64,000 nt of DNA from Candidatus Altimarinota bacterium (lineage in GTDB: Bacteria; Patescibacteriota; Gracilibacteria; BD1-5; UBA6164): positions 1 through 64,000 of the forward strand of contig JAIUMN010000002.1 of NCBI GenBank assembly GCA_022565555.1, given 5' to 3'. Positions 847 to 2,212 of this stretch are shown in pieces; within the stretch, counting starts at the first letter, position 1; each line of letters opens with the position of its first letter. Below the pieces are notes generated by a model. That model was not told the DNA's origin, did not search any database, and saw only the letters and a list, made by a program, of their open reading frames with translations. The translations under genes were made by a program, and so were the position numbers.

Positions 847-1968
847 CTACTTCAAATTCTCAAATATTTCTATACTATTTAATTCTTCCCATGGTACATC
901 ATTTCTTCCAAAGTGCCCATAAGTTGCAGTTTTTTGGTATATAGGTTTTTTGAGATCAAGAAAGTCTATGATTCCTCTTTGAGAAAGATCAAAGTTGTTT
1001 CTTATGCAGTTTATCACTGTTTCTTCATTTACTTGTCCTCCAGTCATGTCAACATAGATACTTACCGGTTCAATAACTCATATTGCATAAGCAAGTTGTA
1101 CCTCGCATATATTGCATATTCATGCAGCGACAATATTTTTAGCAAGATACCGAGCCATGTAAGCTCATGATCTATCAACTTTACTCGGGTCTTTTCCAGA
1201 AAAAGCACCACCTCAGTGGCGTCCTATTCCACCATACGTATCGATAATAATCTTTCGCCCTGTGAGTCCTGCATCTCACTTTGGTCCACCGATGACAAAC
1301 TTCCCAGTAGGGTTAATATGAAAAATAGTTTCACTATCTATATACTTTCATAGTTCAGCTTGTATCACTTCACGTACGATACCAGTTCGAAGCACTTCCA
1401 TATTTGTATCAGATTTATGTTGATTTGATACAACTACAGTATGCACGCGCGTAAATACTCCGTCTTCATACTCACAGCTTACTTGCGTTTTTCCATCTGG
1501 ACCGAGGTAGGGAAGTATTCCATTTTTCCTTACTTCCTCGAGTTTACGAGCGAGTTTATGTGCAAGATAAATAGGAGTTGGCATGTAGGCCTTATTTTCA
1601 TTACTTGCATATCAAAACATAATCCCCTGATCTCATGCCCCTCAGCTATCTACTCACTGAGCAATATCAGGTGATTGTGAATTTATGAGTATCTGCACTG
1701 ATACATCATCAGCACTAAAGCCTACTTCTAAGTTCGTATATCCGATGTCTCGTACGACCCTGCGGGCTATGTCTTGAAAATTTACCCAAGCATCAGTGGT
1801 TATCTCACCACTTACAATAATAGTTCAAGTAGTTGTCATACATTCACAGGCAACCCGTGAGTTTGGGTCTTCCTTGAGACAGGCATCAAGTATCGCGTCA
1901 CTTATTTGATCACACATCTTATCTGGATGACCACAGGTCACTGATTCTGCACTTATGTAGTGTTTCAT
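847..1968 (-). CDS. metK: S-adenosylmethionine synthetase
   Basis: Makes S-adenosylmethionine from ATP and methionine in the cytoplasm. This feeds the SAM-dependent enzymes also in this window (MiaB, RlmN, RlmD/TrmA-type, Trm11-like). The 373-aa length is normal for the family. It opens [17 protein letters not shown] (ATP/methionine site) and carries the central GAGDQGIMFGYA signature and the [19 protein letters not shown] stretch, with C-terminal RNDVPWE. Several signature glycines are TGA, including ones inside GAGDQG. The start is the first ATG after the riboswitch terminator. Expression is very probably controlled by the SAM riboswitch at 2059-2180. I am very sure of the identity. Confidence 0.97.
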
Positions 1969-2016
1969 AATCTTTATGATTAAGAAATAAAATAACATAT
2001 GCCAAGAGATATAAAA

Positions 2017-2046
2017 AAAGATTTTCTAAATATATAGAAAATCTTT
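2017..2046 (-). terminator. Riboswitch-controlled terminator in metK leader
   Basis: A 12-bp perfect stem (2017-2028 with 2035-2046) with a six-base loop is followed, reading the minus strand, by a run of eight T. It lies between the SAM riboswitch aptamer and the metK start, which is the place of an attenuator. Its 5' arm (minus-strand TTTTCTATAT, at 2032-2041) is complementary to the 3' arm of the riboswitch P1 helix (2059-2068), so an antiterminator can form when SAM is absent. Confidence 0.85.
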
Positions 2047-2058
2047 ATGAAAAATATT

Positions 2059-2180
2059 TTTTCTATATCTTTTCCCGCTTGTTGGAGTGGGAGGGAAGGA
2101 GCACCTTTTTTCCTTTGACGAAACTAGGTTGCTGGAGTAGTCATAGAGCCTTATCTCTCTTACTCACTCTGGATATGTTC
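2059..2180 (-). promoter_or_regulatory. SAM riboswitch (SAM-I / S-box type)
   Basis: Read on the minus strand, the leader has the S-box order of conserved blocks: CCAGAG...AGAG, then GGCTCTATGA, CCAGCAACC, and AGGTGCTCC followed by TTCC, before a G/C-rich P4 hairpin (TCCC...GGGA). P1 can form between ATATC (2172-2176) and GATAT (2065-2069). It sits directly upstream of metK, a standard S-box target. The terminator at 2017-2046 and the alternative pairing with the P1 3' arm give a full transcription-OFF switch. The exact SAM-I versus SAM-IV subclass was not tested by covariance search. Confidence 0.85.
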
Positions 2181-2183
2181 ACT

Positions 2184-2212
2184 TATACTAAAAATATTTT
2201 ATATATATGCAA
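2184..2212 (-). promoter_or_regulatory. Candidate metK promoter
   Basis: On the minus strand, TTGCAT (2207-2212) and AGTATA (2184-2189) are separated by exactly 17 bases. They lie just upstream of the riboswitch 5' end, where the leader transcript should begin. Both hexamers depart from consensus, so this is a position-supported guess. Confidence 0.5.

Follow-up and report, generated by a model that had tools for sequence, protein, structure and literature searches.

The stretch of DNA in front of metK raises the question of whether this gene, in a Candidatus Altimarinota bacterium, is preceded by a SAM riboswitch, as an earlier note on the sequence had claimed, and of how such a switch would govern it. 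A search of the window (the whole stretch of 64,000 nucleotides that was analysed) with Rfam returned a match to RF00162 (SAM-I) at 2179-2062 on the minus strand with 44.6 bits (cut-off 44.4, E 6.3e-7), and the product of the gene downstream scores 539 bits against TIGR01034 (cut-off 309), which places the riboswitch before a methionine/SAM gene and bears out the claim. The covariance-score check that the note had suggested came out above threshold, with a margin of just 0.2 bits. This aptamer is the sole SAM match in the window, where the other Rfam match is to RNase P only, and the single SAM-I match in the genome (1.02 Mb). Its parts and the gene behind it are located as follows.

847-1968, minus strand: metK, methionine adenosyltransferase, read in genetic code 25 with UGA as Gly (TIGR01034; Pfam PF00438, PF02772 and PF02773).
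2062-2179, minus strand: SAM-I aptamer with helices P1 to P4 (RF00162, 44.6 bits; helices covary in 30 aptamers of the order).
2172-2176, minus strand: 5' strand of P1, AUAUC (alignment columns 4-8).
2065-2069, minus strand: 3' strand of P1, GAUAU (alignment columns 117-121).

A bit score barely over the cut-off and a P1 proper of 5 bp (2176-2172 with 2069-2065), mostly A-U, both count against the best reading, and the narrow margin of 0.2 bits is what a chance match or a decayed riboswitch might be expected to leave. Such an origin is nevertheless very improbable given the position before metK and the covariation across the order, which together refute a chance match. Aptamer scores among members of the order range from 25 to 72 bits, so the low score of the window would reflect a diverged lineage, and judged by the order-wide matches, the covariation and the metK position the near-threshold value reads as no warning sign.

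The covariation was assessed in an alignment of 30 of the 40 order aptamers, from which seven long-P3 aptamers of another family, L024, L028 (long insert) and L035 (match cut short) were left out. Within it, 95.7% of helix cells are paired, compared with 32-43% when the partner is slid by 1-3 columns, and two-sided changes occur at 10 of the 24 helix pairs. Covariation support is present for P1, P2, P3 and P4, being strongest in P2, while the P3 pairs are nearly invariant and outer P4 is poorly aligned. The pseudoknot between L2 and J3/4 has all four pairs in 29 of the 30 aptamers, and its pairs alternate between UAGG/CCUA (in 22) and GAGG/CCUC (in 7); the window, with AAGG/CCCU, is the one aptamer of the 30 with three of four pairs at the aligned place (four of four if the CCUU slightly upstream is used), and this too counts against the best reading. 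The seven aptamers set aside (L026, L033, L034, L037, L038, L039 and L040, all from another family of the order) have in common a long P3 whose internal loop, CCAACUAUAA / UUGGAAAAUCGG, is conserved; they fall below the Rfam cut-off, yet all lie before metK. The P2 kink-turn, a three-base bulge followed by GA, is present in the window as UAU-GA. By a simple pattern, and with one aptamer not scored, the GA after the three-base P2 bulge is absent in 31 of the 40 order aptamers.

SAM-I/IV and SAM-IV riboswitches belong to the same clan as SAM-I and share its binding core. The window fits RF00162 best within that clan and, unlike those two classes, has a P4; SAM-IV was rejected. The window aptamer keeps the bases that we take to contact the ligand, by a mapping of SAM-I positions onto these aptamers that is partly our assumption; simple patterns find them in 38 of the 40 order aptamers, and the two exceptions are a variant and a truncated match. 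In the window, J1/2 is CAGAG and the P3 loop is GCAAC/GGUGC, and both match SAM-I, whose ligand pocket lies in J1/2 and P3 according to the excerpted text of PMC3656099. This bears on the suggestion that an aptamer with the SAM-I fold might bind another ligand, for instance spermidine: variants of that sort exist, one of them before a metK gene, and the spermidine riboswitch shares with the window a four-stem architecture and an OFF switch by termination, but it is defined by base changes at J1/2 and in the internal loop of P3 (excerpts of PMC10853860). Since the window keeps the SAM-I bases in both places, the spermidine variant was rejected, and a different ligand in general seems very unlikely. 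The leader resembles a SAM-I (S-box, RF00162) riboswitch in P1-P4 with a probable pseudoknot, the UAU-GA kink-turn in P2, the ligand-pocket bases, the location before metK and the combination of terminator and antiterminator, and it departs from that family in having a P1 of 5 bp, J3/4 and J4/1 each longer by one base, an A+U-rich terminator stem with two G-C pairs, and a pseudoknot with three of four pairs.

The spread of the switch among relatives was counted with the stricter filters of Infernal, so weak matches are lost from all of the following numbers. In the order of the window, a match with E of at most 0.001 occurs in 39 of 77 genomes, and 25 of the 77 exceed the cut-off; the class has a SAM-I match in 136 of 353 genomes, and an even sample of the phylum in 84 of 379, with 60 over the cut-off. 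That just 39 of 77 order genomes carry the aptamer at E 0.001 under these strict filters counts against the best reading. The surroundings of 160 places were read: the 40 order places without exception, a further 106 from the class, and another 14 from the phylum sample (from which the best 15 places were read, plus those also within the class). In 137 of them metK follows the aptamer on the same strand, and these include 36 of the 40 in the order. The 23 places where it does not are all in the class; the contig continues for just 15 bases in one and for 481 in another. In the order these places are L011, L021, L027 and L030; L021 may be a rearranged contig, and the open reading frames of L027 and L011 gave no Pfam match. 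The SAM-I switch is spread through the phylum and widespread, and hence no rarity.

Other genes were found behind SAM-I aptamers of the class, among them adenosylhomocysteinase (L139) and homocysteine S-methyltransferase (L152). A small cysteine-rich family occurs in 6 of 353 class genomes (L197, L199, L213, L221, L153 and L244), and in five genomes of five families its gene lies directly behind a SAM-I aptamer (E 0.001 or better), whereas the upstream match in the sixth reaches 22.4 bits, short of the 44.4-bit cut-off. Five of the six members, themselves found via their riboswitches, supplied the search model, so that only the sixth genome is an independent observation. The family has no Pfam match over cut-off and none in NCBIfam or PHROGs, and in L197, L199 and L221 the aptamers before it are without most of P4. 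Two nearly identical SAM-I aptamers, L200 and L216 (G304:C2:293406 and 294337), lie 0.9 kb apart, with near-identical sequence after each, and a 141-aa open reading frame without a Pfam match is open behind the second.

With the aptamer in place, control of metK would depend on the elements that follow it.

2013-2046, minus strand: intrinsic terminator, a 12-bp A+U-rich stem followed by a T run (-11.7 kcal/mol).
2059-2068, minus strand: 5' half of the antiterminator, overlapping the 3' strand of P1 and exactly complementary to 2041-2032.
2032-2041, minus strand: 3' half of the antiterminator, made of terminator 5' arm and three loop bases.

The 12-bp terminator with T run that had been described is present, with arms AAAGATTTTCTA (2046-2035) and TAGAAAATCTTT (2028-2017) and then Ts to 2013 on the minus strand, and none of 200 shuffles is as stable as its -11.7 kcal/mol. 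The same arrangement is common in the order, where 33 of 36 leaders have a terminator-like hairpin (at most -8 kcal/mol, then Ts) in the interval from aptamer to metK, compared with 29 of 360 dinucleotide shuffles, a cleaner test than the antiterminator statistics given below. Elsewhere in the window, a 15-bp terminator-like hairpin with a T run lies at 2514-2546 on the plus strand, behind the gene for ribosomal protein L32.

The ten-base complement to which the earlier note had pointed is exact, minus-strand 2068-2059 (ATATAGAAAA) pairing with 2041-2032 (TTTTCTATAT). Four of the five bases in the 3' strand of P1 are covered by it, and of its ten terminator-side bases seven fall in the terminator arm and three in the terminator loop; because of this overlap the pairing excludes both P1 and the terminator, as had been argued. 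The description of the element as an explicit antiterminator stands in part: the competing complement is there, but as a hairpin it reaches just -6.0 kcal/mol (7 of 200 shuffles are as stable), and most relatives use another segment. In these the competing stretch is the P4/P1 segment GGGAAAGAUAU and not AUAUAGAAAA, and in most of the order the terminator 5' arm has a CUUUCC-like sequence complementary to GGAAAGAUAU of P4/P1. The window's antiterminator pairing beats 192 of 200 shuffles; in the order, the pairing of each place exceeds shuffled arms at the 5% level in just 21 of 40, a moderate result in which some of the chosen hairpins are not true terminators (L029 and L039 far downstream, L022 inside a gene). 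That the terminator is far more stable than the antiterminator counts against the best reading; the ten-base element is a candidate of low stability, plausible but weak, and with only -6.0 kcal/mol available control would need to be decided during transcription.

Taken together, the leader is very probably an ordinary SAM-I riboswitch, an OFF switch that attenuates transcription of metK and gives feedback on SAM synthesis. This reading is supported directly by the aptamer family, the covarying helices, the terminator, the overlap of the competing pairings and the position before metK, and from the family and the gene we infer SAM as the likely ligand and the direction of control. Transcription would start at the aptamer or close by, a predicted start site. 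When SAM is abundant, it would bind at the four-way junction and hold P1, whose 3' strand would then be kept from the 5' arm of the terminator, so that the hairpin could form and transcription would end at the run of Ts. At low SAM, the 3' strand of P1 would pair with the terminator arm and the polymerase would read on into metK, restoring SAM. The same arrangement is described as the standard OFF design of transcriptional riboswitches in the excerpted texts of PMC2258182 and PMC3656099.

2185-2212, minus strand: candidate promoter from sequence reading, TTGCAT (2212-2207), a 16-base spacer and TAGTAT (2190-2185).

A candidate promoter just upstream of the aptamer had also been suggested, and TAGTAT ends six bases before the second aptamer base. 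This proposal has support within the genus set, which comprises eight leaders (the genus of the window plus one genome of another genus of its family), since a -10-like hexamer lies 6-8 bases upstream of the aptamer in all eight; it fares less well in the order, with 22 of 39 leaders against 639 of 1950 shuffles. As such hexamers are common in shuffles, the promoter evidence alone is only suggestive.

Behind the terminator, two further segments complement the strands of P1.

2008-2018, minus strand: candidate element D1, T run plus AUAUC, complementary to the 3' strand of P1 and its A run.
1994-2008, minus strand: candidate element D2, CUCUuGGcAUAUGUU, complementary to the 5' strand of P1 and J1/2.

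In the genus set, D1 pairs 9-11 of its 11 bases in all eight leaders, and at its pair 7 four leaders have A-U, three G-C and the window G-U; at pair 1 of D2, the window has A-U, three other leaders U-A and one U-G. The duplex of the P1 5' strand with D2 has -11.7 kcal/mol in the window (1 of 100 shuffles as good), and a complement to the P1 5' strand beats leader shuffles at the 5% level in six of eight leaders of the genus set, compared with 1 of 32 elsewhere in the order, 17 of 105 elsewhere in the class (one of 106 was dropped, its leader being too short) and none of 14 at the other places of the phylum. When the whole leader is folded, the predicted minimum free energy (MFE) structure contains the D2 pairing in all eight genus-set leaders and the D1 pairing in seven; it is more stable, by 4.7 to 13.2 kcal/mol, than the structure in which P1 is imposed. 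Because D1 includes the T run, its pairing could come only after read-through, and it would have no action before the termination decision. These findings could point to a two-stage switch, in which, after read-through, D1 and D2 would refold the leader and the aptamer would be lost, leaving the message locked ON or its 5' end paired off; in the genus of the window they would dismantle P1, block the pocket bases of J1/2 and pair the 5' end, acting as an ON latch that no longer responds to SAM. We regard this model, in either wording, as doubtful. A+U-rich leaders fold easily, with at least seven P1 5'-strand bases paired downstream in 185 of 480 tail-shuffled leaders and in 7 of 28 other order leaders; D2 is insignificant in L036 (41 of 100 shuffles as good), L016 is without D1 in its MFE fold, and the eight leaders share descent. 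Since shuffled tails often fold alike, the whole-leader fold was dropped as proof, and D1 and D2 are to be read as a lead and not as a result.

D2 may, moreover, be promoter sequence, as it overlaps a possible internal -10. The block behind the terminator is TGTATATTTTA-like (ATGTTATTTTA in the window), is conserved in the eight genus-set leaders and resembles an extended -10 (TGTATAAT in L010), and it could be a second promoter giving SAM-independent basal transcription of metK, the match to P1 being incidental. This is possible, if on the unlikely side: it accounts for neither the conserved CUG/CUGG part nor the covariation in D1, no clear -35 is seen by eye, and the version in the window is a poor -10.

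In other families of the class, L139, L197, L218, L221 and L225 have a downstream complement of 10-12 bases to the P1 5' strand (UCUCGAUAAAAG in L139). As this complement overlaps an arm of the following hairpin in L139, L197 and L218, the antiterminator there may use the 5' strand of P1 and not the usual 3' strand.

The switch in the metK leader belongs to the already known SAM-I class. Riboswitches of this kind had been thought little described in the code-25 phyla, which fits the open-access literature, where no paper on natural riboswitches of the Candidate Phyla Radiation, Gracilibacteria or Patescibacteria was found by title; PMC11665869, in its excerpted text, merely proposes riboswitches as a tool. 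The latch, if true, would mean that transcriptional riboswitches can take one step more than the standard picture allows for. The very probable SAM-I reading means that riboswitch feedback on an essential cofactor gene is kept in bacteria whose genomes are very small and whose genetic code is changed, and it provides a natural control element of defined sequence, which could be adapted to make expression inducible in these organisms.
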